Source of the DNA: Pseudophaeobacter sp.
GTDB lineage: Bacteria; Pseudomonadota; Alphaproteobacteria; Rhodobacterales; Rhodobacteraceae
Direction: 5' to 3'
NCBI GenBank assembly: GCA_027019165.1
Contig: JALUXC010000013.1
Span: 1-54,854, forward strand
DNA: 54,854 nt
Shown one piece after another: positions 5,875 to 52,007 of the stretch. Under the pieces are notes generated by a model. The model worked only from the letters and a program-made list of their open reading frames with translations. It did not search any database and was not told the origin of the DNA. The translations under genes were made by a program, and so were the position numbers. Within the stretch, counting starts at the first letter, position 1; each line of letters opens with the position of its first letter.

Positions 5875-6990
5875 TTACAGCACCCCTGCACGGCTGAAGA
5901 CGCCGAAGAAATTGCCGATCAGGTTCGAGATGGTCAGCGCATCGTTGATCGGGGATTCGGTGGCGATCAGCAGATCACCGGGGTTGATCTGGAACTTGCG
6001 GGCCGAGAACAGCCCGTCTGCCGTGGTCAGATCCAGTGTGAAGACCACCCGCTGATGGCGCGGCCCGCGCTGGTTCGGGGCAATGGCTTCCGCATCATAT
6101 TCGCGCAGGACCAAGAGGCCCTGAGGGTCGGCCTTGCCATCCTGGAAGCCGCCCGAGATCGACATGGCGTCCATGGCCGACATCTCGTCCTTGCTGAAGA
6201 TGTGCAGATCTTCCTTGCCGGTGGCCCCGAAAGAGAGGAAGTAGCGCTCGTCTTCTTCCACAAAAATCCTGTCACCGCCGCGCAGCAGGGTGTCGAGCTG
6301 CGGATTGTTCAGCAGCTTGTCCACCGAGGTGCCATAGATGCTGCGTCCGCGCACCAGGCGGATCTGCGGGTTGTTGAGACTGGGGCTGATGCCGCCGCCT
6401 GCTGAAATCAGCCCCATCACCGAATAGTTGCGATCAGGCATCGGATAGGTGCCGGGCCGGGCCACGCCCGAGACCAGGTCGACCGAGTTGTTGCGCCCTT
6501 CCTGCATGTCCAGCTGCAATTGTACCGAAGGCACGATGGTTTCCAGCTGTTCCTGAAGTTGTTCGCGGGCCAGGTCCGGGGTCAGCCCCAGGACGTTCAC
6601 GCTGCCGACATAGGGCATGAAAACGGTCCCATTGGCCGCGACTCGCACGGCTTGAAGCTGTACGTTCTTCTGTGCCTGTGAAGTCAGAAGAGAATTGTCG
6701 CTGCTGTCCCAGATGCGCAGGGTCAGCGTGTCTCCGGGCTGGATGATCTGGGTCTTGGCGCCATTGCTGGCGCTGATCCAGCCGAGCTGTCTCTTGTTGC
6801 CGGTTTCCGGCCATTGCGCGACCGAGGGCAGAAAGGCGCGGGTCACCGGATACAGGGCGAATTCGGCATCCACCTCGCTGGATTGCTTGATGATCTCTTC
6901 TCCCGTGGGCGCCCCGCCGGGCAGGCGTCCGCAGGCGGCTGGCAAGAGGCAGAGGCTGGCAAGTGCAAGCAGCGGGATCACAAGGCGCAT
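5875..6990 (-). CDS. Polysaccharide export outer-membrane lipoprotein (Wza/KpsD family)
   Basis: Predicted outer-membrane exporter of 371 aa. I chose the ATG at 6990 over the one at 7032 because it gives a clean lipoprotein signal (hydrophobic LVIPLLALASLCLLPAACG, cysteine about residue 20) and has AAGAG upstream. A poly_export domain begins around QIIQPGDTLTLRIWD. SLBB-type domains follow (VDLVSGVARPGTYPMPDRNYSVM, then LRGGDRIFVEEDERYFLSFG). It should form the outer-membrane channel for capsule or EPS. It could partner the KpsM/E/T exporter 30 kb away or the YjbH/YjbF group nearby; the sequence does not decide. It diverges from the reductase gene at 7107. Confidence 0.88.
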   Translation of the reverse strand: MRLVIPLLALASLCLLPAACGRLPGGAPTGEEIIKQSSEVDAEFALYPVTRAFLPSVAQWPETGNKRQLGWISASNGAKTQIIQPGDTLTLRIWDSSDNSLLTSQAQKNVQLQAVRVAANGTVFMPYVGSVNVLGLTPDLAREQLQEQLETIVPSVQLQLDMQEGRNNSVDLVSGVARPGTYPMPDRNYSVMGLISAGGGISPSLNNPQIRLVRGRSIYGTSVDKLLNNPQLDTLLRGGDRIFVEEDERYFLSFGATGKEDLHIFSKDEMSAMDAMSISGGFQDGKADPQGLLVLREYDAEAIAPNQRGPRHQRVVFTLDLTTADGLFSARKFQINPGDLLIATESPINDALTISNLIGNFFGVFSRAGVL

Positions 6991-7106
6991 GGGGGCTCTT
7001 TTCGGAAAGATCTTGATTTTTGGTGTCCGCAAGATACTGCGCTAGGGCGGTGCGTCAACCAGAGGGCGCAAGCCGTGGTGTCTTGAGACGGGGACAAGGG
7101 CAAGAG

Positions 7107-8021: not shown

Positions 8022-8037
8022 TGATCTGGATGATCCG

Positions 8038-19642: not shown

Positions 19643-20809
19643 ATGAAGATTGCCGTAGCCGGTCTGGGATATGTTGGCTTGTCCAACGCGGTGCTCCTGG
19701 CTCAGAATCATGACGTCGTGGCCGTCGATATCGACGCGGCGCGGGTTGAGATGGTCAACGCCCGGCGCTGCCCGATCATCGATGCCGAACTGGAGGATTT
19801 CCTGGCCAACCGCGCGCTGAGCCTGACCGCAACGACGGATGCGGCGGCGGCCTATCGCGAGGCCGACTTCGTGATCGTCGCCACCCCGACCAACTACGAC
19901 CCCAAGAGCAATTTCTTCGACACCTCCTCGGTGGAGGCGGTGATCCGGCAGGTGAGCGCGGTGAATCCCGAGGCCACAATCGTGATCAAGTCGACGATCC
20001 CCGTGGGCTATGTGCTGGACATCCGCTCCCGGCTCGAGACCGACCAGGTGATCTTCAGTCCCGAGTTCCTGCGCGAGGGACACGCGCTTTACGACAACCT
20101 GCATCCCAGCCGGATCATCGTCGGAGAGCGTTCGGAGCGGGCGCGCCGCTTTGCCGAGCTGCTGCTGGAAGGGGCCGAAGACAAGAGCGTCGAGGTGCTG
20201 TTTACCGATCCCAGCGAGGCGGAGGCGATCAAGCTTTTTGCCAATACCTATCTTGCCATGCGGGTGGCCTTTTTCAACGAGCTGGACAGCTATGCCATGG
20301 CGGGCGGCATGGACACGCGCCAGATCATCGAGGGCATCAGCCTGGATCCGCGCATCGGGGACCATTACAACAACCCCTCCTTCGGCTATGGCGGCTACTG
20401 CTTGCCAAAGGACACCAAGCAGCTTCTGGCCAATTACAGCCAGGTGCCGCAGAACCTGATCCGGGCCATTGTCGATGCCAACCGCACGCGCAAGGATTTC
20501 CTGAGCGACCAGATCCTGATGAAGGGCCCCGGGGTCGTGGGCATTCACCGGCTGGTGATGAAGGCGGGCAGCGACAATTTCCGCCAGTCCTCGGTGCAGG
20601 GAATCATGAAGCGGCTCAAGGCCAAGGGCATCAAGGTGATCGTCTATGAGCCGGTTCTGGAGGACGAGTATTTCTTCCACTCGCCGGTGGTGCGCGATCT
20701 GGCGGCCTTCAAGGCCGAGGCGGATCTGATCGTGGCCAACCGCATGACCGAAGAACTCAGCGATGTCGCCGATAAAGTCTTCACAAGAGACCTCTTCGGC
20801 GCAGATTGA
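19643..20809 (+). CDS. ugd: UDP-glucose 6-dehydrogenase
   Basis: Enzyme of 388 aa, the same length as E. coli Ugd, oxidising UDP-Glc to UDP-GlcA. ATG 19643 has a strong AAGGAG 6 nt upstream. The N-terminal NAD motif is [20 protein letters not shown], the [12 protein letters not shown] substrate loop is intact, and the catalytic cysteine is in [11 protein letters not shown] (Cys253). Its product feeds the neighbouring 4-epimerase, so both uronic acids would be available for the polysaccharide. It ends 4 bp before the stop of the convergent AGE-family gene. Confidence 0.93.
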
Positions 20810-20813
20810 GCAA

Positions 20814-21917
20814 TCAGGCCGACAGCCCCCGCCCGCCCGACAGGTAAAAGCGGAAGGCGACCAGAATGTGATAAAAGGTGGAGGCGGGCATGTTCTGGGA
20901 CAGCAGATCGCCCGCGCTGCTGCGCTTGTCGTACCAGCCGCCGGGCACCGGGGTTTGCAGGTAGTCGCGCCACATCAGCGCCAGCACCTCTTCGGGGGTG
21001 CAGCCTGCGGGCAGTTCCAGCCCTCTGCGGCGCAGGGCGACACCTGCTTTCAGGAATTCAGTTTGGGGCCACATGCGGCGGCTGCCCGAGGGTGGATCGG
21101 CCTGGTCCGGCAACAGGCCCGCGACGTCGCGCCGATCAATCACCGCCTGGAACAGATGCGCCAGGTCAAGGCCACTGTCCTGCCCGGTCAGCACCTCGTA
21201 GCGGTCGATCAGATAGATCCATTCCGCCATATGGCCGGGTTCCACCGCCTGTTGATCGGGGGGAAGCGGCTGCCAGTCCGGGTCGAAATATTCCAGCACC
21301 CGGCCATCCTCGGTCAGGAAGACCTCGCGGTAGAGCGCCAGGCACTCCTCGGCCATGCTGCGAAAGCGCGCCTCCCCCGTGGCGGCAAAAAGCGCGGTCG
21401 AGGTCTCGAACATGTGCATATGCGGGTTCTGGCGGCGACGCGCGGGCGCCTCGGCGCTTTCGAACCAGCCGCGCGGCGCCTTGAGCCGGGCCAGATCGCC
21501 CTCCAGCCGGGCCAGATCTGCGGTGACGTCGAACCCCGCTTCGATCAGGGCGGCAGCGGCCAGCAGCATGAAGGCGAGATCATAAAGGTCATGGGGGGCG
21601 CTGATCAGGCTGCAATCGGGCGCAAGCCGGGCGCCGAGGTTGCCGGTTTTGGGATCGAACCCCCGGTCCATGGCAAAGCGGAACAGCTGCAGGGCCAGGG
21701 TGTGATGGGCCGGGTCCTGCGACTGGGCAAAGCAATAGGCCTGCCGGACCTGCACCCGAAGGCGGCGCTCCATATCCGCAAGCGGGGCGCCCTCGTGATC
21801 CAGTGCCTCCCAGACGGTGCCGGTGGCCGTATCCACGCCGGTGCCGGTCCACAGCGGCAGGGCCTCTTCAGTCAGCCAGCGAGGCAGCTCTGCCGTCCAG
21901 TCCATATCCATGCTCAT
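20814..21917 (-). CDS. AGE-family N-acylglucosamine 2-epimerase / mannose isomerase-like protein
   Basis: Alpha6/alpha6-barrel sugar 2-epimerase family member of 367 aa. Family motifs include CFAQSQDPAHHTLALQLF, NPHMHMFETSTALFAA (paired His residues) and EPGHMAEWIYLIDRYE. Members either epimerise GlcNAc to ManNAc or isomerise mannose and its 6-phosphate, and the two cannot be told apart by eye. The start ATG 21917 overlaps the stop of the GT42 gene by 4 bp, so it is the third gene of the neuA-GT42-AGE operon. That position suggests it provides the six-carbon precursor (ManNAc, or Man-6-P for KDN) for the NeuB-like synthase. Confidence 0.85.
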   Translation of the reverse strand: MSMDMDWTAELPRWLTEEALPLWTGTGVDTATGTVWEALDHEGAPLADMERRLRVQVRQAYCFAQSQDPAHHTLALQLFRFAMDRGFDPKTGNLGARLAPDCSLISAPHDLYDLAFMLLAAAALIEAGFDVTADLARLEGDLARLKAPRGWFESAEAPARRRQNPHMHMFETSTALFAATGEARFRSMAEECLALYREVFLTEDGRVLEYFDPDWQPLPPDQQAVEPGHMAEWIYLIDRYEVLTGQDSGLDLAHLFQAVIDRRDVAGLLPDQADPPSGSRRMWPQTEFLKAGVALRRRGLELPAGCTPEEVLALMWRDYLQTPVPGGWYDKRSSAGDLLSQNMPASTFYHILVAFRFYLSGGRGLSA

Positions 21918-22735
21918 CTCAAATAACTTTGTGCTTGCCGCATCAGGAGACTGCCTCGGCGCAGAAGTTTCAAGAGTGAAATCGGGTAGATCCCACTGCG
22001 CGAGACCCAATCCTGCGGGGGGGTTTTGCGTGCCAGCCGCAAGGAAGGCCCGCCCCTTAGTGGTGCCAGCTCGGTCAGGGGCGCCAGCACCGGATTGTCT
22101 GCCGCCCGCAGCAGACGGCAATCGTCCCGGCTGCGCAGGGCCCGCAGGATATCGAGATCCAGCTCCAGCGCATGGAGGTGCTGATCAAACCCGCGCTGGC
22201 CCAGGTCCTGCCCCATCAAGGCCCGGAAATGGGGGCCTGGCTCGAATGGATAGCGGCGGGTGCCGGTGTAGAAATCGAAGCCGGCCAGGATGATCTCTTC
22301 AGCGCCCATGGCATGGGCCATGAGCAGGGCGTAGAGGCCGGTGGTGGGGTGACGCTGATAGCGGGTGATCAGGCGCTGCACTTCGGCTTGGATATGGGCA
22401 TCGCGGTAGCGCATCGGCTGATAGAGCGCACCAAAACGGCGCTGCCCGGCGCGCACCACGCGCGGATTGTGGCTGGTCCAGCCGCCCAGCTCATAATCCT
22501 GGCGGCAGCGATAGAGGGTTTCGAACATGAAGGGGGCCACGCGGGGATCCCCGGCCATAAAGGCCAGATCCACCCGCCGCCCCAGGTAGAAGTTGGGTTC
22601 GAAGAAGAAGTTGTTGGTACGGATGATGAAATCTTCCGCCCGGATGCGGCCCGGCTCCAGATCCGCGATCGAGGCGCCATTGCCCGCCACCACGACCGGG
22701 CGGTCCCGCAGCTGCAGCGTAGGGGTTTTGGTCAC
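21914..22735 (-). CDS. GT42-like sialyltransferase
   Basis: Protein of 273 aa resembling Campylobacter Cst-I/Cst-II enzymes. It has VVVAGNGASIADLEPGRI at the N-terminus, then IIRTNNFFFEPNFYLGRR, matching the family FRCNQFYFEDKYYLGKK block. The HPTTGLYALLMAHAMGAEEI and LAGFDFYTG motifs follow. A His (about 186) in FDQHLHALELD aligns with the Cst-II catalytic base His188. It would transfer a nonulosonic acid from CMP onto the growing glycan. It overlaps neuA upstream and the AGE gene downstream by 4 bp each, a tightly coupled operon. Acceptor and linkage are unknown. Confidence 0.85.
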   Translation of the reverse strand: MTKTPTLQLRDRPVVVAGNGASIADLEPGRIRAEDFIIRTNNFFFEPNFYLGRRVDLAFMAGDPRVAPFMFETLYRCRQDYELGGWTSHNPRVVRAGQRRFGALYQPMRYRDAHIQAEVQRLITRYQRHPTTGLYALLMAHAMGAEEIILAGFDFYTGTRRYPFEPGPHFRALMGQDLGQRGFDQHLHALELDLDILRALRSRDDCRLLRAADNPVLAPLTELAPLRGGPSLRLARKTPPQDWVSRSGIYPISLLKLLRRGSLLMRQAQSYLR

Positions 22736-23952
22736 GGGGCCGTGGCCTCAGTGCTGCGCAGGACATCGGCCATGGCGCGCAGGGCGCCCTTGCCACCGGG
22801 CAGCGGCAGGATCCAGTCGGCGATTCCGAGGATCTCGGGGTGGGCATCACTGGGGCAGGCAGAGAGGCCGGCCCGCTCCATGGCACCGCGATCATTGATG
22901 TCATTGCCCACAAAAAGAAGATCTGCCCAGTTTAGACCCTGTTCCTGCAGCCAGGCGTGAAGCGCGGCCACCTTGTCATCGACGCTGTGATAGACCTCAA
23001 GCTGCAGCTTTTCGGCGCGCCGCAGCACCACCGGGTTCTTTTCCTTGGAGAGGATCATCATCCGGTAGCGCCCGGACTGGCGCAAAAGGGAAATCCCCAT
23101 ACCGTCCCGGCGCGAGGTGCGCACGCTTTCCACACCGTTCTGATCGGTCAGCACCAGATCGTCCGTATGGACCCCGTCAAAATCCATCACGATGGCCTTG
23201 ATCGCGGCAAGGCGCGCAGGGGCCAGCTCGCTCTGCCCGCCCGCCTGGGCGATCTGGGAACAGAGGGCGAAATCCTGCAAGGTATCGATCTCGATCGGCG
23301 GGTGATCCACCGGGTAGAGCGCCACCGTGCCGCAGAATCGCTGGCCGGTCTTCAGGAACGGCTCCAGCGCCACGCAGTAGATGGCGCCGCTTTCGCAATA
23401 TTGCGGCGGCAGATCCTGGCGGCGCTTGCGCTGCTCGCGTTCGTTGTGGTTGATCCCCACGCCCCGCCCGGCGTCATCCAGCCCCCAGAGGAAGGAATGA
23501 TCCTCGGTCACCGACAGGGCGCAGTCAGCACCGCGCGCCGCCATCTCGGCCAGGCAGCCATCGATGTCATCGCCGCGGGTAAAGGGCGAGGTGCACTGCA
23601 AAAAGACCAGCTTGTCGAGCGCGTGCAGATCGGCGCGCACCAAAGGCACCGCATGCAGCCAGCCGGCCTCGGAGGTGGCGGTATCGCCGGAGAGATCCGC
23701 GGGGCGGTCGATGATGCGGGCGCCGTGCAGGCGGGCCTCGGCGGCAATGGCGGCATCATCGGTGGAGACATAGACCGCAGCCACGCGCGTGGCAGCCCGC
23801 GCCGCCCGCACCGAGCGGCCGATCAGCGAAACCCCGCCCACCGGGCGCAGGTTCTTGCCTGGCACCCCCTTGGAGCCGCCCCGGGCCAGGATGATGCAGG
23901 CGGTGTCCTGATGGGGCGCTGTGGGCATATCGGAGGGGGAAGGCTGGGTCAT
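22732..23952 (-). CDS. neuA: CMP-nonulosonate synthetase fused to a KdsC-like HAD phosphatase
   Basis: Two-domain enzyme of 406 aa. Residues about 17-240 are a NeuA-type cytidylyltransferase (ACIILARGGSKGVPGKN pyrophosphate loop; QYCESGAIY). Residues about 245-400 are a haloacid-dehalogenase domain of KdsC/YrbI type (DFDGVHTDD nucleophile loop near 253, SKEKNPVV, FVGNDINDRGAM). It would activate Neu5Ac, KDN or a relative as CMP-sugar. The fused phosphatase suggests the pathway passes through a 9-phosphate, as in KDN and animal-type sialic acid routes. It is the first gene of the leftward operon; a 185-bp divergent region separates it from the gene at 24138. Confidence 0.9.
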   Translation of the reverse strand: MTQPSPSDMPTAPHQDTACIILARGGSKGVPGKNLRPVGGVSLIGRSVRAARAATRVAAVYVSTDDAAIAAEARLHGARIIDRPADLSGDTATSEAGWLHAVPLVRADLHALDKLVFLQCTSPFTRGDDIDGCLAEMAARGADCALSVTEDHSFLWGLDDAGRGVGINHNEREQRKRRQDLPPQYCESGAIYCVALEPFLKTGQRFCGTVALYPVDHPPIEIDTLQDFALCSQIAQAGGQSELAPARLAAIKAIVMDFDGVHTDDLVLTDQNGVESVRTSRRDGMGISLLRQSGRYRMMILSKEKNPVVLRRAEKLQLEVYHSVDDKVAALHAWLQEQGLNWADLLFVGNDINDRGAMERAGLSACPSDAHPEILGIADWILPLPGGKGALRAMADVLRSTEATAP

Positions 23953-24137
23953 ACGGTGGTTCTATCTGCTCATTCTTAAATAGGCCTAGGACCCCAAAAG
24001 CCCACCCGGAAACCGGATTAATGTGGGCTGTTGACGGCACCTGGCGCAATCAGCCCTTGTTTACAAAGCCCATGGGGACGTGTAAATCCCACGACAGTTT
24101 CCCCCGACCTTCCCCTTGCGTTCAATATCCGGCTAAC

Positions 24138-24347
24138 ATGCTGCAAAGATTAAAACAGTCTCGTCTTGGCAAGGTCCTTTACCGCCTCTCGCGCAGCTCC
24201 TTTGGCGGCCCTTTGCGTTTTCTTGCCGGTTTGGTTCAGCATGAGCGCCTGAACCCCAGTCACTTTGCGGCGCGCAACCGGCGCCACAACCGGGAGCAAA
24301 TGCAGATTCTGGCCCGTTTCGAGGCCAAGACCCGGCGGTCCGGATGA
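24138..24347 (+). CDS. Small basic protein, function unknown
   Basis: Frame of 69 aa starting at ATG 24138 (MLQRLKQSRLGKVLYRLSR). It is rich in Arg, Lys and His with one weak hydrophobic patch (FGGPLRFLAGLV), and has no signal peptide. Its stop overlaps the ATG of the next gene (24344) by 4 bp, which argues that it is really translated. I do not recognise the family. An amphipathic membrane-docking or chaperone-like role for the following transferase is speculation. Confidence 0.6.
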   Translation: MLQRLKQSRLGKVLYRLSRSSFGGPLRFLAGLVQHERLNPSHFAARNRRHNREQMQILARFEAKTRRSG

Positions 24348-25504
24348 GTGCCCTGCCCTTGCAGCCCGCAGGCCCGGCGCAGGTGCCTTTCGAAGCGCGC
24401 CCTGTGCTCTTGCTGTTCAGTGACGATTCCACCCTGTTCTTTGCCCGGCGCATGCGCGACTGCCTGCACGCGGCGGATCCGGATCTTCAGGTGCACATGG
24501 GGTGGGTGGTGGCAGAAAATGCCCTCTCCTACCGGCAGATGAAACAGCTCCTGCCCGAGGGACCGGACCTTGCAATCCATGGCGAGACTGCTTTTGAGGA
24601 GCTGCTCCTGGGCGGGCGCTACCGTGCTATCCTGACCAGCCGGGTCTACGGGGCGCTTGGTGCCCAGTTGCGACGCGTCGAAATCTCGGCCACGGCAGGG
24701 CGCCCCTGCGTGATCGCGTTCCTCGGCGGGCTCGATTTCTTTCCCGAGAACGGCTATTTCCGCCGCCGCAACTGCGATGGGGTCTACCTGTTCCCGGCCA
24801 GCGACATCCCGGTCTACGAGCGGCGCGCCGCCACCTGGGGCGATCGCATGTGGCAGGAGGTGGGCTTTGGCCATCCAACCTTTCTGGCACCCGAGGCGCT
24901 GCCGCCCGAGGATCTGGCCAGGCGGCGCGATGTCTACTTCTTTACTCAGGCCCTGTCGCCCACCACCCGGCGCGGGCGCATGCATATGCTTGCGGCGATG
25001 GCGGCGATCGCACGGGCCAACCCGGACCGCACCGTCTGGATCAAGCTGCGCCACCTGCCCCATGAGAACCAGCAGCACCTGCATCTGGAAAAATACGACT
25101 ATCCGGGCCTGCTCAAGGCTCTTCCGGATGTGCCGGACAATCTGAAGCTCACCGCCTGCACCATGGACGAGGCGCTAAAGACGGCAGCCCTTGGCATCAC
25201 CTGCACCTCGACCGCCGCCATCGATGTGATCCGCGCGGGCGTGCCCTGCATGGTGCATCTGGATTTTGTCGACAACTACGCCGACCCTCTGGTCGCGCCC
25301 ATGCGCAAGCTCTTTGCAAAAAGCGGCCTGATCACCCCGCTTGAAGACATGCTTACCCTGCGCGCGGCGACGCCGAACCCCGAATGGATCGCCGATATGT
25401 TCTGCCCCCGCGACCTGGGCGCGCGGGTGCTGGACACCGTTGCCCGGTTCAACACCCGGGCCTTTCAGGTTGAGGTTATCGGTGGAATATGCAGCTCTGA
25501 ATGA
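24344..25504 (+). CDS. Putative glycosyltransferase of the nonulosonate locus (DUF6716-like)
   Basis: Protein of 386 aa with a two-domain GT-B-like layout. The N-terminal Rossmann-like half runs from PVLLLFSDDSTLFFARRM to HGETAFEELLLGG. The C-terminal half has RTVWIKLRHLPHENQQ and LKTAALGITCTSTAAIDVIRAGVPC, the pattern of capsule-type and polysialyltransferase-like enzymes (KxHPxE and a Ser/Thr-rich sugar-nucleotide loop). No membrane segment is present. It is coupled to the small basic protein upstream. The IS3-type element begins about 90 bp after its stop; the last 15 residues look ordinary, so it is probably intact. Specific donor and acceptor are unknown; its position opposite neuA suggests nonulosonate transfer. 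Confidence 0.7.
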   Translation: MSALPLQPAGPAQVPFEARPVLLLFSDDSTLFFARRMRDCLHAADPDLQVHMGWVVAENALSYRQMKQLLPEGPDLAIHGETAFEELLLGGRYRAILTSRVYGALGAQLRRVEISATAGRPCVIAFLGGLDFFPENGYFRRRNCDGVYLFPASDIPVYERRAATWGDRMWQEVGFGHPTFLAPEALPPEDLARRRDVYFFTQALSPTTRRGRMHMLAAMAAIARANPDRTVWIKLRHLPHENQQHLHLEKYDYPGLLKALPDVPDNLKLTACTMDEALKTAALGITCTSTAAIDVIRAGVPCMVHLDFVDNYADPLVAPMRKLFAKSGLITPLEDMLTLRAATPNPEWIADMFCPRDLGARVLDTVARFNTRAFQVEVIGGICSSE

Positions 25505-25641
25505 ATCGGCATTCGGGATAAACTGAGTGATTTCCACTTGATGGCGTGATTCGCAGTTTGAACACCGAGCGGTGAACATGTCTGATCGTTTTGGACTGCC
25601 CGGGTAATCCCCCCATTTTTAGAGGTGTGCATCAGTAGAAT

Positions 25642-26470
25642 CTAAGCTGCTTTCAATTTCTGCATCGGGGTCATCCCGCCGATGCCCATGTTTGGCCTTT
25701 CATTGTTATATGTCCATAGCCAGCGCGTGGCATGGTCTTGCACCTCTTCGATGCGGTTGAAGTGATACCGCCCGAGCCATTCTGTTCGGACAGTGCGGTT
25801 GTAGCGTTCGACGCAAGCGTTCTGCCGCGGCTTTCCCGGTTGGATATAAATCAATCCGATCCCGGCGTTTTCCGCCCAGTTCTGGAGCCTGGCACTGACG
25901 TATTCGGGGCCGTTGTCGATCCTGACCGCCAAGGGCTTCCCTCGCCACGCAATGATCTGGTTCAATATCCGAACCACGCGTTCAGAAGGCTGCGGGAAGT
26001 CAACCTCAATGGCCAACCCTTCGCGAATGAAATCATCCAGCATGTTCAGCGTTCGGAAAGATCTGCCGTCCGCCAACTGATCGGCCATGAAGTCCATGGA
26101 CCAAACCTCGTTCGGGGATTCAGGTACCACCAGCGTTCCGGCTTCTCGCGCTGCAGACGTTTGCGCGGTTTGATCCGCATGTTCAGTTCCAGCTCACGAT
26201 AGATGCGGTAGACGCGCTTGTGGTTCCACCTGAACCTTTTCACGTTCCGCAGATGCAGGAAGCATAGGCCAAAGCCTTAGGTCTTCTTCGCTGTTGTCAA
26301 TGCGACCAGCCAGTCCGCGATCAACTCGTTCTCGTCGCTAAGTTTCGGCTGATACCGATAGCATGTCTCGCTGATCGAGAACGCCCTGCATGCCAAAGCA
26401 ATACTGGCGGATCGGTAGTGCACCGCCCATTCGGCCATCTCGCGCCTTTGTCCCTCTCGGGACATTGCAG
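25642..26470 (-). pseudogene. IS3-family transposase OrfB, broken
   Basis: The rve/DDE integrase part is recognisable in three pieces. An N-terminal piece has SIALACRAFSISETCYRYQP and ends at a TAA where the family has Trp (TAKKT then stop then GFGLCFLHLRN, same frame). An HTH/linker piece is [24 protein letters not shown] shift to another frame near 26130 gives [31 protein letters not shown] and [13 protein letters not shown] through [21 protein letters not shown]. One in-frame stop plus one frameshift make it non-functional unless recoded. Confidence 0.85.
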
Positions 26471-27096: not shown

Positions 27097-27516
27097 TTGA
27101 GCTCTGTGGCCGCCTTCTTCATTGACGCCCATGACCACGAGCTCATTGCCCGGCGCGCCGTGGCCAATATTGGGATCAGCGGTTCGGATGTGCGCAACAT
27201 ATTGCTGGAGGCCGTCGAGGTGTTGACCGACAACCGCAGCGCCTACACGGCGAAAGACAAGCGCATCTTTGCCCGCAATCTCGGGTTGAAGCCCTGCTTC
27301 ACGCCGCTAGCCGGCCCGCAGTCCAATGGCATGTCAAGGTCTTTTGTGAACACGCTGAAGGGTGACTACGTCCGCGTTAGCCCGTTGCCAGATGCCGAAA
27401 CAGTTCTAAGGTTGATCGGAAACTCGATCGAAGACTATAACGAGAACCACTCACACAGCGGCCTGAAATGGAAATCGCCTCGCGAGTTCATCAGGGCCAA
27501 AACCGAAACCGCTTAG
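27097..27516 (+). pseudogene. IS3-family (IS2-group-like) transposase, C-terminal fragment
   Basis: Open frame of 139 aa holding only the catalytic C-terminal part: FFIDAHDHELIARRAVANIGISG, VEVLTDNRSAYTAKD, PCFTPLAGPQSNGMSRSFV, then HSGLKWKSPREFI. The N-terminal half and orfA are missing. Its last 26 bp overlap the end of the convergent glycosyltransferase frame at 27491, showing that the IS end now supplies the 3' end of that gene. Confidence 0.82.
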
Positions 27517-29053
27517 GTGTCCGGAGAGATGGGGGCTGGATCACCTTTGTTGAAAGTTCATTTGCGACATACCGCTTTATTTCCTCCAGGCGAATTTTGT
27601 ATATTTCTGGCAAATGGCGTGATGCCTCTTCCAAAACCTTAAGGTGGCGGCTTGAGGAAGGCGTTTTCATTATATTTTCTGCGCTATTTGCAAAAGCTTC
27701 TGCGAAATCGCCGTTATTTAAAAGGCGGACGGAGACTGAGATCGGCTTTCTGTATTTAGCCAATTCTTCTTTACTGCGGACGAAATCATCATAATTTCTT
27801 CCGTTTATCGCATATTCTGACATCAACTCAGAATTGTTCAGCTCGATATCCTTTAACCAATTTCCTAGCCTTGGTTGAAAGTCCTCAAATTCGAACTCAT
27901 TTACGAGTTTGGACAGCCTTTCTTTGTCTTTCTCACTTTTTACAAACCTCTTAGGGTGCATGCAGCTCGAAAGAGTTTCTAAAAGTCCCACTAACCTATT
28001 GTAGTCTATATTTATGGATGGGGTATCATTCAAACTTGGAAGACACTCGCTTATGAGTACCGCAGGTATGAAATTACTATTCGTTGTTCCCAGGAGAGAT
28101 TCCAAAACTCGATCTGTTCCAAATTTATAAGCTGGGACGCCGAAAATCTTATTTGCACTCATGAGTCCAGTTGAGAATATCGATATCACCGCAGACGGCT
28201 TGGTGTGCATCAGATACTCTTCAATGAGAACTTTTTGAGAGAGGAACTCAATCTCCAAACCGGCCTCATCGCAACTTATCAGTAGCTGCTCAAGCGCATG
28301 CTGCGGGAAAGATGGATGAGCTTTGAAATACAGCCGTTTTGTTTTTAATTTCCGTTGACTTTGGACAAGTCCCCGTACGTAAAGGTCTATTTCCTCATCT
28401 TGACTCATCAATCCCGAGTCCGCCAAGTATTGGCCCAGAAATACTGCGCTGGATCGAAGGTCGGGTAGGGACTTTTCATCATGAGCTATATTTGCGAACT
28501 CACTTTTTAAGTCGTCACATTTAATAGGAGATAGTTCAATCGAATAAGGCTCAAATATATATGGTTTAACGGGGGAAATGTAGTCCACATAGTGGCATTT
28601 CGCAACTCTGCTTAGGATGCTTGTTGGCAAATTTGTTTTAATCGGTGAAAATACCATTAGCCCATCACTGTAGACTTCAATGGCAGAATCAGAAAACAGA
28701 TTGGCTATGGTTAGGGCTGGAGCAACCTGCAGGCTTTCAACCAAGATCGAAGTTACCTTGCCGCCAATCGCAGCCTCAATCATAGATCTTTGAGCAAGCT
28801 GTTCCACTTCATTCCCAATGGGCTTCCATTGCGCAGGGTGCAATGGAGCAATCAAGTCATTTAGAATCATAATCTTGTCAAACGCACGCTTGACATTCTC
28901 GTCGTCGACTAGATCAATGAGTGGGTTTCTAACTTCGAAATCTTGATTGTGCGCAGAAAGAAAAAGAACCCTCCTATCATCTCGGTTCCTTTTTTTCAAA
29001 ACGCTGAGGAGTGTATAAAGTCCAAACTTTGTAGAGGCCTGACACAAAATCAT
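27491..29053 (-). CDS. Polysialyltransferase-like glycosyltransferase
   Basis: Protein of 520 aa resembling the alpha-2,8-polysialyltransferase family (PF07388 type). The core has SAVFLGQYLADSGLMSQDEE, the KxHP element in RLYFKAHPSFPQHALEQLL, and the donor-binding loop SAVISIFSTGLMSANKIFGV. No membrane helix is seen. The last 10 or so residues (LRTPKRFRFWP) are antisense of the flanking transposase fragment, so the natural C-terminus was replaced by the IS junction; the catalytic core is upstream and may survive. The gene is distinctly AT-rich and uses A/T-ending codons unlike its neighbours, a sign of horizontal transfer. It starts 4 bp inside the preceding GT2 gene. Confidence 0.72.
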   Translation of the reverse strand: MILCQASTKFGLYTLLSVLKKRNRDDRRVLFLSAHNQDFEVRNPLIDLVDDENVKRAFDKIMILNDLIAPLHPAQWKPIGNEVEQLAQRSMIEAAIGGKVTSILVESLQVAPALTIANLFSDSAIEVYSDGLMVFSPIKTNLPTSILSRVAKCHYVDYISPVKPYIFEPYSIELSPIKCDDLKSEFANIAHDEKSLPDLRSSAVFLGQYLADSGLMSQDEEIDLYVRGLVQSQRKLKTKRLYFKAHPSFPQHALEQLLISCDEAGLEIEFLSQKVLIEEYLMHTKPSAVISIFSTGLMSANKIFGVPAYKFGTDRVLESLLGTTNSNFIPAVLISECLPSLNDTPSINIDYNRLVGLLETLSSCMHPKRFVKSEKDKERLSKLVNEFEFEDFQPRLGNWLKDIELNNSELMSEYAINGRNYDDFVRSKEELAKYRKPISVSVRLLNNGDFAEAFANSAENIMKTPSSSRHLKVLEEASRHLPEIYKIRLEEIKRYVANELSTKVIQPPSLRTPKRFRFWP

Positions 29054-30006
29054 TTAAGTATATCCTGGATAATCTTGCGACGCTTCGCATCAATTTTTGA
29101 AAGAGATTTCTCAACATCCTTAAGTGGAAGTGTTTGTAGAAGCCCTCTTATTTTTGCGTACATTTTATTTTTTGCGGTTTCCGTTAAGCGACTTTCCCGG
29201 TCTATCTGAAAGCAGGAAATTGCAAGGAATTGCCGTATCGCCTTGGGTGCGAATTCACTTCTGTTTCCAGTGTATAAGAAGCTAAATATTTCAGCGTAAG
29301 ACTCGACAAATTCTGTCTGACGCTCATCCCCTATCCCAGTTAGGCTTTCTTGGCGTCCTCGCCGGTAGAACATTCCATATTCATCTGAGACAAGAAATAA
29401 ATCACCCAAAACCATTGCCTTCCAAATGAACAGCCTATCTTCAGCAGTATGGAAGTTAGCATATCTAATGAAGTGTTTATTTAGAAACTCACTACTATAC
29501 ATCCCTGCCGGTATTACGGCATTATCGACTGGGGTAGATGCATTTTCCGGCATGATGCACAACTTTGGGTCGACAGGTTTCTCTGCAACATCTGAAAAAA
29601 TACGCCTGACTCGTCTCTCTTTGGGAAATGCCTCAATACAGCTTGAGCGCACAAAATCAAGATTTGAGTTTTTTGAGAAGTACTGAATCAAGGACCTGTG
29701 ATAATCGGGGCGCACCCAATCATCTGCATCCATGACAGTTACATACTTCGTCATGACAGCATCTAAAGCTTCATTCCGAGCAATTCCCGCCCCTTTCGGA
29801 TCGCTATTTTTGATTATCTTAGATTTTGGCCAGTTCTCAACATGCCGCTCCATTACTTCCATTGTGCGATCTGTGGAGCCATCATTTACAAGTATGAGCC
29901 TAGCACCTGATGATAGTGAGTTCTCTAAAGACTGTAGCGTGGTGGGAAGCGTTTCAGCCGCGTTCAATGCAGCTATTACAATTGTCAGCTCTTCCATCTC
30001 CGACAT
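29050..30006 (-). CDS. Family 2 glycosyltransferase (AT-rich, acquired)
   Basis: GT-A transferase of 318 aa. The nucleotide-binding start is LTIVIAALNAAETLPTTLQSLE, followed by LILVNDGSTDRT. The metal-binding DADD is in KYVTVMDADDWVRPDY, and a TAEDRLFIWKAM acceptor-side motif follows. It is AT-rich like the following polysialyltransferase-like gene and overlaps it by 4 bp, so the two moved together. Sugar specificity cannot be read from sequence. Confidence 0.88.
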   Translation of the reverse strand: MSEMEELTIVIAALNAAETLPTTLQSLENSLSSGARLILVNDGSTDRTMEVMERHVENWPKSKIIKNSDPKGAGIARNEALDAVMTKYVTVMDADDWVRPDYHRSLIQYFSKNSNLDFVRSSCIEAFPKERRVRRIFSDVAEKPVDPKLCIMPENASTPVDNAVIPAGMYSSEFLNKHFIRYANFHTAEDRLFIWKAMVLGDLFLVSDEYGMFYRRGRQESLTGIGDERQTEFVESYAEIFSFLYTGNRSEFAPKAIRQFLAISCFQIDRESRLTETAKNKMYAKIRGLLQTLPLKDVEKSLSKIDAKRRKIIQDILK

Positions 30007-34513: not shown

Positions 34514-35443
34514 ATGACTGAAGCACATTCTCCGGTAAAGGTTATCGCCGAGATCGGATGCAATCACAAAGGCGAAATGGAACTCGCCAAGGAACTCATC
34601 CGAGTCGCAGCGCATGTCTGCAAGGCAGATATCGCCAAGTTCCAGAAACGCCACAACCGGGAATTGCTCACCCCCGAGCAATACAGCACCCCGCACCCCA
34701 ACCCGGCGAACTCTTACGGGGACACCTATGGCGCTCACCGCGAGTTCCTGGAATTCGACACCGACCAGCATAAAGAGCTGATCGAATGCTGTGCGGAAAA
34801 CGGCATTGCCTATTCCACCAGTGTCTGGGATCTGACCTCGGCCAAGGAAATGGCCGCTCTGAACCCGCCGCTGCTGAAGATCCCCTCGGCCACCAACCAG
34901 CACTATGACCTGCAGGGCTATCTCTGCGAGCATTACGCGGGCGAGATCCATGTTTCCACCGGCATGTCCACCGGCCAGGAAATCGTCGATCTGGTGAATT
35001 TCTACGCCGAGCGCGGCCGCGCCAAGGATCTGGTCGTCTACAGCTGCACCTCGGGCTACCCGGTGGCCTTCGAGGACATCTGCCTGTTTGAAATCCGCAA
35101 CCTGATGGAGAAATTCGGCGCCACTGTCAAAGGCATCGGATTCTCCGGTCACCACCTGGGCATTGCCGCCGATGTGGCCGCCCTGGCAGTAGGCCGCACC
35201 ATGGAGGCGGACGGCAAGGGCAAGTTCACCCATATCGAGCGTCACTTCACCCTGGACCGGACCTGGAAGGGCACCGATCACGCCGCCAGCCTCGAGCCCG
35301 ACGGGCTGCGCCGCCTGTGCCGCGATCTGAAGAACGTGGACAAGGCGCTGGCCTACAAGGGTCAGGAGATCCTACCGGTCGAGCAGGTCCAGCGCGACAA
35401 GCTGAAATGGGTCAAGGCGGATCACGAGACCGCTGCTGAATAA
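34514..35443 (+). CDS. neuB: N-acetylneuraminate/KDN synthase-like protein lacking the SAF domain
   Basis: NeuB-family TIM-barrel enzyme of 309 aa condensing PEP with ManNAc, Man-6-P or a similar sugar to a nine-carbon 2-keto acid. Motifs include VKVIAEIGCNHKGEMELAKELI, FQKRHNRELL and STSVWDLTSAKEM. LLKIPSATNQHYDL, HVSTGMSTGQEI and VVYSCTSGYPV follow, then IGFSGHHLGI and ERHFTLDRTWKGTDHAAS near the end. Typical NeuB proteins run to about 340-350 aa with a C-terminal antifreeze-like SAF domain; here the chain stops after the barrel. No NeuC is encoded nearby. It is followed by a convincing terminator and lies 12 kb from its probable partners neuA and AGE. Confidence 0.88.
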   Translation: MTEAHSPVKVIAEIGCNHKGEMELAKELIRVAAHVCKADIAKFQKRHNRELLTPEQYSTPHPNPANSYGDTYGAHREFLEFDTDQHKELIECCAENGIAYSTSVWDLTSAKEMAALNPPLLKIPSATNQHYDLQGYLCEHYAGEIHVSTGMSTGQEIVDLVNFYAERGRAKDLVVYSCTSGYPVAFEDICLFEIRNLMEKFGATVKGIGFSGHHLGIAADVAALAVGRTMEADGKGKFTHIERHFTLDRTWKGTDHAASLEPDGLRRLCRDLKNVDKALAYKGQEILPVEQVQRDKLKWVKADHETAAE

Positions 35444-35554: not shown

Positions 35555-36397
35555 TTACTTGTACAGGATGTCCTTGCTGAACTTGCGCAGCAACAGGATA
35601 CCAAAGAAGCCGGGGATCATGCCCAGAAGCGCCACGTAGACCAGCGAAATGTAGCCTGGATCATAGGTGGAATAGAACCCGGTGCGGATCAGCCCGCTCA
35701 GGTGGATCAGCGGATTGAACCAAAGGATATTCTGCACCACCATGGGCAGATCCTCGTAGATGTAGAAGACCCCGGACACCAGCATCAGCGGGCGCGTCAT
35801 CACCCCCCAGGTCATTCTGTAAATAGGGAATGAGAACATCATATAGGCGTTGAAGGTACCGATTCCGACAGCCAGGAGAACAGTCATCGCATAGGTCAGA
35901 AGGATCGGACCGAAATCCAGGATCAAGCGGACATCCTCCACGATGAAGACCCCGGTGAAAATGATCGCAGAGACCATGATCTGGGTCAGCACCGCCAGGA
36001 TGCTGCGCGAGGCCAGGGTGTCCACATAGGTCACCCGCGGATAGGCCAGCAGCGCCTGATTGAAGAAGATCGCAAGCCCCACCGCGGTCGAGACCTCCTG
36101 GAACAGGCGCAACACCATGAAACCCGTGGCATAGAACAGCACGAAGCTGGTGCCGAGCGACGGCGAACGCAGCAGAAACGAAAAGGCCAGGGTCAGGATC
36201 ACGATCATCGCCACCGGCTGCAGGATGGCCCAGATGTAACCACCGGGGCTGCGCCCGTAAGTGGTCGACATCTCGCGCAGGATCAGGGCGACAATGGTGC
36301 GCATCCCACGATACCGCAGGTCCAGCGGCACTGAAGGGGTGATCGCTGGCGGTATGCTCCGGGTTTCAGGCACATCTGCTGTCGGGGGCTGTGTCAT
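35555..36397 (-). CDS. kpsM: Capsule ABC exporter permease (KpsM/ABC-2 type)
   Basis: Integral membrane protein of 280 aa with six predicted helices (for example WAILQPVAMIVILTLAFSFLL, ILAVLTQIMVSAIIFTGVFIV, VYVALLGMIPGFFGILLL). The ABC-2 signatures REMSTTYGRSPGGYIWAILQP and FNPLIHLSGLIRTGFY are present. ATG 36397 (MTQPPTADVP) is chosen; the frame to 36484 would overlap the start of the divergent kpsE-like gene. With KpsE and KpsT it forms a group 2/3 capsule exporter that moves the finished, lipid-linked chain across the inner membrane. Confidence 0.92.
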   Translation of the reverse strand: MTQPPTADVPETRSIPPAITPSVPLDLRYRGMRTIVALILREMSTTYGRSPGGYIWAILQPVAMIVILTLAFSFLLRSPSLGTSFVLFYATGFMVLRLFQEVSTAVGLAIFFNQALLAYPRVTYVDTLASRSILAVLTQIMVSAIIFTGVFIVEDVRLILDFGPILLTYAMTVLLAVGIGTFNAYMMFSFPIYRMTWGVMTRPLMLVSGVFYIYEDLPMVVQNILWFNPLIHLSGLIRTGFYSTYDPGYISLVYVALLGMIPGFFGILLLRKFSKDILYK

Positions 36398-36469
36398 TAA
36401 GGCTGGTACTTTCGCGCGGCGTGTGAAATTTGATAGGCTGTTTCGGAAACAATCGTTTGGACCATAGGC

Positions 36470-37765
36470 TTGGCTGATAATCAATCAAATCCCGCTGCGT
36501 CAAAACAGGCAAGTGGTGAGAACGACAAGCCACCCACCGCGCCCGCTCCGGCCAAACCGGCAGCGGCGCCCGCCGAGGCTGCCGCGAAACCGGCTCCCAA
36601 GCCAAAACCGAAACCGGCTCCGGCCGCCGACCCGGTCTATGCCCCGGCCCGCCCGGCGCGCCGCCAGCGCCGTCACTGGATGCTTCTGCTCAGCTTCCTG
36701 CTTTGCGTGATTCTGCCCAGCTTCCTCACCGGTGGCTACCTGTGGACCCGGGCGGTGGATCAGTACACCTCAAGCGTCGGCTTCACCGTGCGCCGTGAGG
36801 ATACCCCTTCAGCCGTGGATCTGCTGGGCGGCCTTGGCGCCTTTTCCGGCGCAAGCTCCTCGGACAGCGACATCCTGTTCGAATTCATCCAGTCCCAGGA
36901 GCTGGTCGAACGGGTCAACGAGACGCTGGACCTGCACAGTCTTTACAGTCGCCACCATACCACCGATCCGATCTTTTCCCTGGCGCCGGACAGCACCATC
37001 GAGGATCTGGTCGAGTACTGGCAACGCATGGTGTTGATCTCCTATGCGCCCGGCACCGGCCTGATCGAGCTGAAGGTGCTGGCCTTCACCCCCGAAGAGG
37101 CCCGCGCCGTCGCCCGCGAGATTTTCCGCGAGAGCAGCGAGATGATCAACATGCTCTCGGCGATCGCCCGCGAGGATGCCACCCGCTATGCCCGCGAGGA
37201 ACTGGATGCTGCGGTCACCCAGCTGAAACAGGCCCGCCAGGCCCTGACCGCCTTCCGTTCGCGCACGCAGATCGTCGACCCCAGCGCCGACATCCAGGTG
37301 CAGATGGGGCTTTTGAACACCCTTCAGCAGCAATTGGGCAAGGAGCTGATCGACTACGACTTGCTGATCACCTCGGTTCAGGAGAGCGATCCGCGGCTTC
37401 AGAAATCGCAACAGCGCATCGCCGCCCTGCGTGCCCGTATCGACGCCGAGCGCGACAAGTTCGGCAGCGGCGGGGAGACCACCTCGGGCGAAGACTATGC
37501 CACACTGGTGGCCGAGTTCGAACGGCTGATGGTGGACCGCGAATTTACCGAAAAGAAATACACGGGCGCCCTGTCGAACTATGATGCCGCCCTCGCCCAG
37601 GCGCAGCGTCAGAGCCGGTATCTTGCGGCCTATCTGCGCCCCACCCTGGCCGAAAGCGCACAATACCCGCGCCGCCCGCTGCTCATGGGGCTGACCATCC
37701 TGTTCCTGCTCATTGCCTGGAGCACCGCGGCCCTGATCTACTACTCGCTTCGGGACAGGCGCTGA
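36470..37765 (+). CDS. kpsE: Capsule export inner-membrane periplasmic adaptor (KpsE/CtrB/BexC type)
   Basis: Polysaccharide co-polymerase-like adaptor of 431 aa. A Pro/Ala/Lys-rich cytoplasmic leader of about 60 residues (PAPKPKPKPAPAAD) is followed by membrane helix 1 (about 70-92). The conserved SSVGFTVRREDTPSAVDLLGG opens a periplasmic coiled-coil region (about 210-400), and a second helix lies near the C-terminus (LLMGLTILFLLIAWSTAALIYY). The start appears to be TTG 36470 and no ATG gives a better fit. It should connect KpsM/T to the outer-membrane channel at 5875-6990. kpsT follows 38 bp later. Confidence 0.9.
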   Translation: MADNQSNPAASKQASGENDKPPTAPAPAKPAAAPAEAAAKPAPKPKPKPAPAADPVYAPARPARRQRRHWMLLLSFLLCVILPSFLTGGYLWTRAVDQYTSSVGFTVRREDTPSAVDLLGGLGAFSGASSSDSDILFEFIQSQELVERVNETLDLHSLYSRHHTTDPIFSLAPDSTIEDLVEYWQRMVLISYAPGTGLIELKVLAFTPEEARAVAREIFRESSEMINMLSAIAREDATRYAREELDAAVTQLKQARQALTAFRSRTQIVDPSADIQVQMGLLNTLQQQLGKELIDYDLLITSVQESDPRLQKSQQRIAALRARIDAERDKFGSGGETTSGEDYATLVAEFERLMVDREFTEKKYTGALSNYDAALAQAQRQSRYLAAYLRPTLAESAQYPRRPLLMGLTILFLLIAWSTAALIYYSLRDRR

Positions 37766-37803: not shown

Positions 37804-38466
37804 ATGATCAAGCTGGAAAATCTGACCAAGAGTTTTCCCACCCCCAACGGGCGCAAATTCGTGGCCCGCAACGTCAACCTGACCATTCCCAAGGGCAAGT
37901 CGCTTGCCCTGCTCGGGCGCAACGGGGCGGGCAAATCCACCATGTTGCAGATGATCTCCGGGACGATGAACCCGGATTCGGGGCGCATCATCTCCTCCGG
38001 CAATATCTCCTTCCCGGTGGGCTTTGCCGGCTCCTTCCACCGCGATCTGACCGGGGCACAGAACGCCCGTTTCGTGGCCCGTATCTACGGTGTGGACACC
38101 GACGAACTTCTGGATTTCGTCGCCGATTTCGCGGCTCTGGGCGGCCATCTGCACATGCCCGTGCGCAGCTATTCCTCGGGCATGCGCTCGCGCCTGGCCT
38201 TCGGCATCTCCATGGCGCTGAAATTCGACACCTACCTGGTGGACGAGGTGACCTCGGTCGGAGACAGCGCCTTTCGCCGCAAGAGCGCGGCCATCTTCAA
38301 GGCGCGGATGCAGGATTCAAATGCCATCGTGGTCACCCATTCGCTGCTCGAGGTGCGCAACCTCTGCAATGCCGGCGCGGTGCTGGAGGATGGCGAGGTG
38401 ACCTATTTCGACGACGTGGAAGAGGCGATCGCCCTGCACTCACGCAACATGAAAAAGGCCAGATGA
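37804..38466 (+). CDS. kpsT: Capsule ABC exporter ATPase (KpsT type)
   Basis: ATPase of 220 aa, the KpsT length. Walker A GRNGAGKS is at residues 38-45, the ABC signature is YSSGM (about 122-126), Walker B is TYLVDE, and the switch histidine is in VVTHS. It has no C-terminal carbohydrate-binding extension, so it is the KpsT/CtrD class rather than the Wzt O-antigen class. It is translated after the KpsE-like gene (GAGGG upstream of ATG 37804). The KpsC and KpsS Kdo-linker transferases usual in such loci are absent here. Confidence 0.92.
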   Translation: MIKLENLTKSFPTPNGRKFVARNVNLTIPKGKSLALLGRNGAGKSTMLQMISGTMNPDSGRIISSGNISFPVGFAGSFHRDLTGAQNARFVARIYGVDTDELLDFVADFAALGGHLHMPVRSYSSGMRSRLAFGISMALKFDTYLVDEVTSVGDSAFRRKSAAIFKARMQDSNAIVVTHSLLEVRNLCNAGAVLEDGEVTYFDDVEEAIALHSRNMKKAR

Positions 38467-48413: not shown

Positions 48414-48417
48414 GGGC

Positions 48418-50516: not shown

Positions 50517-50555
50517 CTTTTGGAGCGGCTGGGGCGCCTGAAAAGGAATTTGAGT

Positions 50556-52007
50556 ATGAGTGCAGATTCAAAGATTATCCCGGTTCTGCTCTGCGGCGGC
50601 TCGGGCACCCGGCTGTGGCCCTTGTCGCGCAAGAGCTACCCCAAGCAATTCGTGCCTCTGGTGGGCGAAGAGACCCTGTTTCAGGCTTCGGCCGCCCGTT
50701 TGTCGGGGGCCGGCTACGGCGCGCCGATGGTGCTGACCAATTCCGATTTCCGCTTTATCGTCACCGAGCAGCTTTCGGGGGCAGGCATTGATCCGGGGGC
50801 GATCCTGATCGAACCTTCGGGGCGCAATACGGCACCTGCTGTTCTGGCGGCGGCGCTGTATCTGGCGCAGCAGGAGCCCGGGGCACTGATGCTGGTGGCG
50901 CCGTCCGATCATGTGGTGCCCGATGCCGCGGCCTTCCGCGCCGCCGTGACAGCGGGGCAGGGGGCAGCTGCGGCGGGGCAGATCGTCACCTTCGGCATCA
51001 AGCCCACCCATGCGGAAACCGGCTATGGCTATCTCGAACTGGACGGCGATCCTGGCGATTTTTCTCCCCGTGCCATCGGCCTCAAGCGGTTTGTGGAAAA
51101 GCCCGATGCGGCCACAGCTGATACGATGCTGGCCTCCGGGCAGTTCTTGTGGAATGCGGGCATCTTCCTGTTTTCGGTGAAAACCATCCTTGAAGCCTTT
51201 CGCGCCCATGCGCCGGACCTGCTGGCGCCGGTCGAGGCCTCGGTCACCGACGGGCAGCCGGATCTGGGATTCTTCCGGCTGGATCCCGGCGCCTGGGCGG
51301 GGTGCCCGGATATCTCGATCGACTATGCGGTGATGGAGAAGGCAGACAACCTCACGGTGGTGCCCTTTGCGGCCGGCTGGTCGGATCTTGGCGGCTGGGA
51401 TGCGGTCTGGCGCGAGGCGGGGCCGGATGAAAACGGCGTTGTCACGGCGGGTCATGCCACCGCGATCGATTGCGAGAACAGCCTGATCCGCTCCGAGGAT
51501 GAGGGGCTCGAAGTCGTCGGCATCGGCCTCAAAGACGTGATTGCCGTCGCCATGCCCGATGCGGTTCTGGTGGCAGATAGCAGCCGCGCGCAGGACGTCA
51601 AACAGGCGGTTGCGGCGCTGAAGGCGAAATCGGCGAAACAGGCGACTGATTTCCCCAAGGATCACCGTCCCTGGGGCTGGTTCGAAAGCCTGGTGGTGGG
51701 CGAGCGCTTTCAGGTGAAGCGCATCCATGTGCACCCCGGCGCCGCCCTGTCATTGCAGTCGCACCATCACAGATCAGAGCATTGGATCGTGGTGGAAGGC
51801 ACCGCCAAGGTGACCGTGGACGATGAGACCCGGCTCGTGACCGAAAATCAGTCCGTCTATATCCCCCTTGGTGCGGTGCACCGGCTGGAGAACCCCGGCA
51901 AGGTTGCGATGGTGCTGATCGAAGTGCAGACCGGCAGCTATCTGGGCGAAGACGACATCATCCGCTACGAAGACCTTTATGCGCGGGGGCAGGGGGAAAA
52001 GGGCTAG
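50556..52007 (+). CDS. manC: Mannose-1-phosphate guanylyltransferase / mannose-6-phosphate isomerase
   Basis: Bifunctional enzyme of 483 aa. The GMP domain is N-terminal (LLCGGSGTRLWPLSRKSYPKQF at about 10-31; LVAPSDHVV; FVEKPDA). A C-terminal type II phosphomannose isomerase cupin follows (RPWGWFESLV; VHPGAALSLQSHHHRSEHWIVV). It makes GDP-mannose, the substrate of Gmd, and can produce Man-6-P. ATG 50556 has AAGGAA 7 nt upstream. No phosphomannomutase specific to mannose is encoded nearby. Its last 50 bp overlap the end of the convergent sensor kinase gene. Confidence 0.93.
   Translation: MSADSKIIPVLLCGGSGTRLWPLSRKSYPKQFVPLVGEETLFQASAARLSGAGYGAPMVLTNSDFRFIVTEQLSGAGIDPGAILIEPSGRNTAPAVLAAALYLAQQEPGALMLVAPSDHVVPDAAAFRAAVTAGQGAAAAGQIVTFGIKPTHAETGYGYLELDGDPGDFSPRAIGLKRFVEKPDAATADTMLASGQFLWNAGIFLFSVKTILEAFRAHAPDLLAPVEASVTDGQPDLGFFRLDPGAWAGCPDISIDYAVMEKADNLTVVPFAAGWSDLGGWDAVWREAGPDENGVVTAGHATAIDCENSLIRSEDEGLEVVGIGLKDVIAVAMPDAVLVADSSRAQDVKQAVAALKAKSAKQATDFPKDHRPWGWFESLVVGERFQVKRIHVHPGAALSLQSHHHRSEHWIVVEGTAKVTVDDETRLVTENQSVYIPLGAVHRLENPGKVAMVLIEVQTGSYLGEDDIIRYEDLYARGQGEKG

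Follow-up and report, generated by a model that had tools for sequence, protein, structure and literature searches.

Which sialic-type sugar would the genes of a plasmid-like roseobacter contig make: N-acetylneuraminic acid (Neu5Ac), or 2-keto-3-deoxynononic acid (KDN), the deaminated form of sialic acid? The question is raised by the Pseudophaeobacter contig JALUXC010000013.1, all 54,854 bp of which were analysed (the window) and for which a preliminary description had left the choice between the two sugars open. We found that the contig probably encodes its own pathway to cytidine monophosphate (CMP)-activated KDN, which would feed a capsule-type exporter. The contig carries a RepA-type (PF10134) replication gene and ParA and looks like a small plasmid; a comparison of its ends found no overlap and thus did not support circularity. 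The host genome is 4.32 Mb and listed as 99.99% complete.

A compact operon and its NeuA-phosphatase fusion

The core of the proposed pathway consists of four genes (lengths in amino acids, aa):

20814..21917, minus strand: AGE-family enzyme (PF07221), read as a type III phosphomannose isomerase (PMI) converting fructose-6-phosphate to mannose-6-phosphate
21914..22735, minus strand: GT42 protein (CST-I/II-like; PF06002), predicted KDN transferase, 273 aa, GTG start
22732..23952, minus strand: NeuA (CMP transferase) fused to a putative KdsC-fold nonulosonate-9-phosphate phosphatase, 406 aa, from Pfam/NCBIfam and structure matches
34514..35443, plus strand: short NeuB without a SAF domain (PF03102), predicted KDN-9-phosphate synthase, 309 aa

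In the pathway that we propose, the AGE-family enzyme, a ManC-PMI or both would supply mannose-6-phosphate from fructose-6-phosphate. The short NeuB is predicted to condense it with phosphoenolpyruvate to KDN-9-phosphate, the C-terminal HAD domain of the fusion would strip the 9-phosphate, and the N-terminal NeuA domain would turn KDN into CMP-KDN. The GT42 protein, perhaps together with a DUF6716 and a PF07388 protein, would put KDN on a glycan, which would leave the cell via the KpsMTE/Poly_export-type machinery of the same contig. The basis is observed gene content and domain architecture, together with residue signatures, clades and the lack of those alternative precursor families that were searched for; substrates, product, linkage and export are inferred from these.

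The three leftward genes had been described as joined by 4-bp overlaps, and both overlaps were confirmed: one at 22732-22735 between the fusion and the GT42 gene, the other at 21914-21917 between the GT42 and AGE genes, provided that AGE starts at 21917. The AGE frame is open over 20814-22121, and the ATG at 21917 agrees with the starts of orthologues. The order fusion, GT42, AGE is found again in further Rhodobacterales as well as in Maritalea and Pelagibacterium, both Devosiaceae, and is therefore not due to chance. An intact pathway could still be unexpressed on a plasmid whose surroundings are disturbed by insertion sequences. Transposase genes at 25642-26130, 30797-31573 and 31671-32162 would fit such silence, as would a promoter scan that found no sigma-70-like pattern in 20700-25600, but that scan leaves other promoter types uncovered and all four core open reading frames (ORFs) are full-length and conserved; we consider a silent or broken pathway very improbable.

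The gene assignments of the preliminary description were borne out by Pfam, with CTP_transf_3 (60.5 bits) and Hydrolase_3 (28.1 bits) matching the fusion, CST-I the GT42 protein and GlcNAc_2-epim the AGE-family enzyme. Among NCBIfam models, the HAD part of the fusion matched the KdsC subfamily and the KDN-9-phosphate phosphatase with 84.6 bits each, both below the cut-off (180 for NF058599). If the sugar were Neu5Ac, the AGE-family enzyme would make N-acetylmannosamine (ManNAc) from N-acetylglucosamine (GlcNAc), NeuB would use this ManNAc as such or once a kinase has acted on it, and the phosphatase domain would be a passenger, as the inactive HAD domain of vertebrate CMAS is. The presence of 3ewi, titled N-acylneuraminate cytidylyltransferase, among the HAD matches is in keeping with this. 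However, the window domain has the catalytic Asp and E56/R64/K67, three residues to which a specificity role is ascribed in the BT1713-type phosphatase, and D10, D12, E56, R64 and K67 of BT1713 were kept in all 66 nearly full-length fusion ORFs (a count of ORFs, some being one gene fetched twice). The two KdsC/YrbI-like chains in the comparison carry Arg at position 56 and Ser or Glu at position 67; the alignments show 4hgq and 4hgr departing from 3e81 at 56, and 4hgr at 67 too. The conservation of the BT1713 residue set thus argues for a nonulosonate 9-phosphate and hence for a hexose-6-phosphate precursor.

The fusion also accompanies the synthase elsewhere. Within the fetched flanks, beyond which more distant genes are missed, it was matched in 68 of the 80 short-NeuB loci described below (at least 340 residues aligned in 59), with neuB no more than 400 bp away in 49 of these 68. 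Nine matches were partial, two of them (27-28%) resembling other cytidylyltransferases, and 12 loci had no match. In Bacteroides thetaiotaomicron, the source of BT1713, the same logic from mannose-6-phosphate through KDN-9-phosphate and KDN to CMP-KDN is described (excerpts of PMC6200933), and the phosphatase shares its E/R/K set with the window fusion. There the parts are built differently: the phosphatase frame was at most 254 aa in 24 of 32 BT1713-like matches (379-400 aa, maybe a fusion, in the other eight), and the linked NeuBs are long (344-353 aa in 20 of 21 ORFs, versus 309 aa here).

A short synthase without a SAF domain

The NeuB-like synthase reported at 34514 is present (PF03102, 203.4 bits, above the cut-off) and is the sole PF03102 match in the genome; its lack of a C-terminal SAF/antifreeze-like domain and its place in a separate cross-phylum clade had been overlooked. 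The chain stops 28 residues past the Pfam domain. A contig scan confirmed 110 relatives, and the best 80 of the 110, which were kept, are all 286-311 aa with 62-95% identity. Because all 80 have a similar length, a truncated or frameshifted normal NeuB was ruled out. By record titles they come from Rhodobacterales, Devosiaceae, Croceicoccus, Flavobacteriia, other Bacteroidota, Bacillota, Verrucomicrobia and Nitrospiraceae, and from metagenome-assembled genomes of Oligoflexia (one), Spirochaetales (one) and Euryarchaeota (two). Within the order, short NeuB occurred in 9 of 390 genomes (77-100% identity), the next NeuB being at 35%. Twenty of 21 lower-identity NeuBs cut as loci had 327-361 aa; the remaining one, of 628 aa, bears a long extra C-terminal part that recalls the NeuB-COG1082 fusion of Serratia.

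A tree of 68 rows included 26 short ones (the window, six plasmid loci and, out of the 80 loci, 19 chosen by hand), which were recovered as a single group (100/100). Across a 97/96 split, the short rows shared their side with 12 of the 13 BT1713-linked synthases, with four rows that make up a second SAF-less group and with two long NeuBs; Neisseria meningitidis NeuB (NmeNeuB), PseI of Campylobacter jejuni, an enzyme from Leptospira and the remaining long rows lay on the opposite side. Eight of the 21 BT-type rows were omitted for size, and several rows sit on long branches. PseI lies across this split, and the clustering with spore-coat or pseudaminate synthases that was to refute the preliminary description did not appear in this tree, which was built without SpsE. 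Topology tests rejected close kinship to the meningococcal NeuB (p-AU 0.0035); the topology joining short NeuB to the BT type survived, and a single SAF loss for both short clades was not rejected (p-AU 0.23).

For the short NeuB, AlphaFold gave a model (pLDDT 87.9) whose barrel superposes on that of sialic acid synthases; SAF parts of the latter fall outside what was aligned. Thirteen active-site residues of NmeNeuB were taken from excerpts of PMC6795526 and scored by eye in the alignment: eight are identical (25, 55, 74, 129, 186, 213, 215 and 234), three are changed (T110S, F112W and N184S), and 288 and 314 lie past the alignment. According to the same source, Arg314 is the sole SAF residue directly reaching the active site and contacts ManNAc. 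Its absence from the short NeuB speaks against the Neu5Ac route. The best NCBIfam model of the protein is nonetheless N-acetylneuraminate synthase (175.4 bits, cut-off 399.65), a point on the Neu5Ac side. In the tail of the short NeuB, Q293, R294, K296 and K298 are invariant and are candidates for taking the place of Arg314.

Several known systems were compared. In Nonomuraea gerenzanensis, one open frame (6636-8828 of the fetched locus) encodes NeuA, HAD and a SAF-less NeuB, and it adjoins genes for GT2, PF07388 and DUF6716 proteins that resemble those of the window; the Nonomuraea NeuB shares 35% identity with the window NeuB and belongs to the second SAF-less clade. Through Nonomuraea, the locus is likened to the actinobacterial Kdn teichulosonic-acid cluster, the S. 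coelicolor genes (SCO4873-4882, with members named neuAB/sialic acid synthase) being compared by description (excerpts of PMC13011467, PMC2267785 and PMC8269224). A match in Streptomyces NBC_01237 was discarded as a 355-aa NeuB of another kind. Also by description, the KDN capsule of Serratia marcescens KL1/KL2 needs capsule genes that include neuA and neuB, and for the Serratia NeuB, unlike the window one, a fusion with a COG1082 isomerase/epimerase domain is predicted (excerpts of PMC9000132).

Candidate sources of the hexose precursor

The AGE-family enzyme (148.7 bits) is the sole PF07221 gene of the host genome. It is 36% identical over its full length to S. meliloti Pmi, known from its annotation as a type III PMI, and the two have the invariant motifs in common; a 1992 paper by Schmidt reportedly points, by its title, to S. 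meliloti Pmi activity. The S. meliloti gene stands alone, versus the operon gene here. In the AGE tree, a 100/100 branch united the window enzyme with S. meliloti Pmi and ManC-AGE fusions (17 of 30 rows), within which the three Pmi-type rows were not one group and the Pmi branch was long (1.71). A row-based AGE model excluded S. meliloti Pmi and two plasmid rows. The structure model of the window enzyme was nearest to mannose isomerase and related hexose enzymes. The Neu5Ac route could appeal to the GlcNAc 2-epimerase name of PF07221, to the top structural match, titled GlcNAc 2-epimerase family protein, and to a ROK match spanning half the profile in the host genome. Nevertheless, the clade and the structure ranking set the enzyme apart from four GlcNAc epimerases, and it scored 25.6 bits against the N-acylglucosamine 2-epimerase equivalog NF052547 (cut-off 600); from these results the reading as a GlcNAc 2-epimerase was rejected, and we read the enzyme, from its sequence and model, as a type III PMI.

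A second possible source of mannose-6-phosphate is the plasmid-borne ManC that had been proposed as a helper, found on the same contig:

50520..52007, plus strand: bifunctional ManC/PMI (type II; PF00483 and PF01050), alternative source of mannose-6-phosphate

It is the sole PF01050 match of the host genome; a search of that genome for three PMI families gave no match outside this contig. The reported absence of NeuC held at genome scale, where a profile search found neither PF02350 (the NeuC family) nor NanE; a mannose-6-phosphate source is thus present, and a NeuC-family or NanE source of ManNAc(-6-phosphate) is absent.

The search was extended to 34 short-NeuB genomes, mostly isolates (the host and 33 from the 80 loci; one extra genome for PF07221, seven genomes for ROK and 12 for the PMI families). 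No PF02350 match was found in 14 of them. Three (Flavobacterium aquaticum, F. cheniae and Flavivirga aquatica) also had no PF07221, no NanE over the cut-off and no ROK match, with one type I PMI each. In two of the three, ten of the ORFs near neuB included no legionaminate or pseudaminate enzyme, being glycosyltransferase-like, methyltransferase, pyruvyl transferase or without assignment. Mannose-6-phosphate is therefore the simplest precursor in these three genomes, and would yield KDN. That the same NeuB and fusion occur there speaks against Neu5Ac. Of the two branches left open earlier, KDN is supported and the AGE/GlcNAc route is disfavoured, because the phosphatase implies a 9-phosphate, NanE and the NeuC family are absent and AGE groups with the Pmi type; we regard Neu5Ac as unlikely.

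A slightly less likely product is another nonulosonate 9-phosphate, or a C5-modified KDN, for example one with a methyl or acyl group, that derives from a modified hexose-6-phosphate. 5-O-methyl-Kdn is known from Sinorhizobium fredii (Gil-Serrano 1998, as cited in excerpts of PMC9000132 and PMC7845648), and relatives of the short NeuB lie on S. fredii plasmids, with strain NXT3 standing in for HH103. In Azospirillum thermophilum, a SAF-less NeuB and an HAD gene (6004-7947 of the fetched locus) adjoin legB, legC and neuC, that is, legionaminate genes, and the window itself holds a GDP-mannose dehydratase/DegT set at 47295-50516. Yet no legB/legC/pse-type set was found among the window proteins searched, and late methylation would begin from KDN anyway.

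Some results weigh against KDN as the product. PF02350 is present in 20 of the 34 short-NeuB genomes, the S. fredii relatives have no direct tie to the 5-O-methyl-Kdn strain, and the short-NeuB group has a long stem in the tree. SAF loss is neither necessary for KDN (the BT1713-linked NeuBs are long) nor sufficient (Azospirillum); as a proof of KDN it was dropped after these counterexamples in long and SAF-less NeuBs.

Transfer, export and the wider setting

The GT42 protein matches CST-I with 40.6 bits (cut-off 25), has CstI/CstII as its best PDB matches, and shares with these Campylobacter enzymes the catalytic His and Tyr pair (H188, Y156 and Y162). The catalytic histidine named in the preliminary description was kept in all 15 orthologues (distinct proteins), as were Y162 and N31, and Y156 in 14. 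Three positions with a role in CstII, looked at with regard to CMP-Neu5Ac as donor, differ: N51 is D in 15/15, Q58 is M in 14/15, and R129 is replaced in 15/15, the window protein having an Arg one position earlier. The protein is predicted to be a KDN transferase. Further candidates for transfer and export lie nearby:

5875..7032, minus strand: outer-membrane polysaccharide export protein (Poly_export/SLBB)
24344..25504, plus strand: DUF6716 putative glycosyltransferase (PF20471)
27491..29053, minus strand: alpha-2,8-polysialyltransferase-like protein (PF07388), 32% to the protein beside the Nonomuraea NeuA-HAD-NeuB fusion
29050..30006, minus strand: GT2 glycosyltransferase overlapping the PF07388 gene, 31% to the Nonomuraea neighbour
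35555..36484, minus strand: KpsM-like ABC permease (Pfam/NCBIfam)
36470..37765, plus strand: KpsE/CtrB/BexC-like inner-membrane export protein (NCBIfam)
37804..38466, plus strand: ABC ATPase, KpsT-like by its position near the KpsM- and KpsE-like genes

The DUF6716 protein, matched in 16 of 27 loci compared and often beside the fusion cluster, is a candidate KDN transferase or polymerase. PF07388 was found in two of the nine genomes of the order with short NeuB. Flanked by the transposase genes and enclosed by an 84-nt inverted repeat (26947-27030/32329-32412, 81%), the PF07388/GT2 pair appears as if brought in as cargo. The export genes look group-2-like.

Elsewhere, 47295-52007 encodes a GDP-mannose dehydratase, an NAD epimerase, a DegT aminotransferase and the ManC/PMI, a set that resembles one for GDP-perosamine. 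RTX-repeat proteins lie at 14633-16876 (with a serralysin-like M10 match) and 38617-41484, the latter matched in 13 of the 27 loci. On Tritonibacter p4 and Marinovum pMaD10, pseudaminate-type genes lie between or around the fusion cluster and neuB, and two nonulosonates may share one plasmid.

Among bacteria, KDN has been reported for Klebsiella, Sinorhizobium, Streptomyces, Serratia and, in vitro, Bacteroides. The pathway as such is therefore not new, although KDN capsules are termed uncommon among bacteria (excerpts of PMC9000132). Nor is a roseobacter with a sialic-type sugar without precedent: the lipooligosaccharide of Loktanella rosea has neuraminic acid attached to Kdo (excerpts of PMC3210612). 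Among the matches listed in literature searches on roseobacter nonulosonic or sialic acids and KDN-9-phosphate phosphatase, no title dealt with such a locus. The variant here is probably an operon for CMP-KDN, borne on a plasmid and combining a SAF-less synthase with an AGE-type PMI: a complete-looking surface-sugar pathway on a roseobacter plasmid, in which an AGE-family enzyme is linked to mannose-6-phosphate supply. We give even chances to a broader view, that the short NeuB and the fusion form a mobile two-gene CMP-KDN cassette, with loss of the SAF cap, which reads the N-acetyl group, going with KDN specificity and with KDN being common on the surface of flavobacteria, clostridia, rhizobia and roseobacters; the cassette would then have been overlooked because of its annotation as 'N-acetylneuraminate synthase'. 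If the clade makes KDN, many genes so named would need re-reading, and a synthase of 300 aa that lacks the swapped SAF cap would offer a simple test enzyme for substrate choice.

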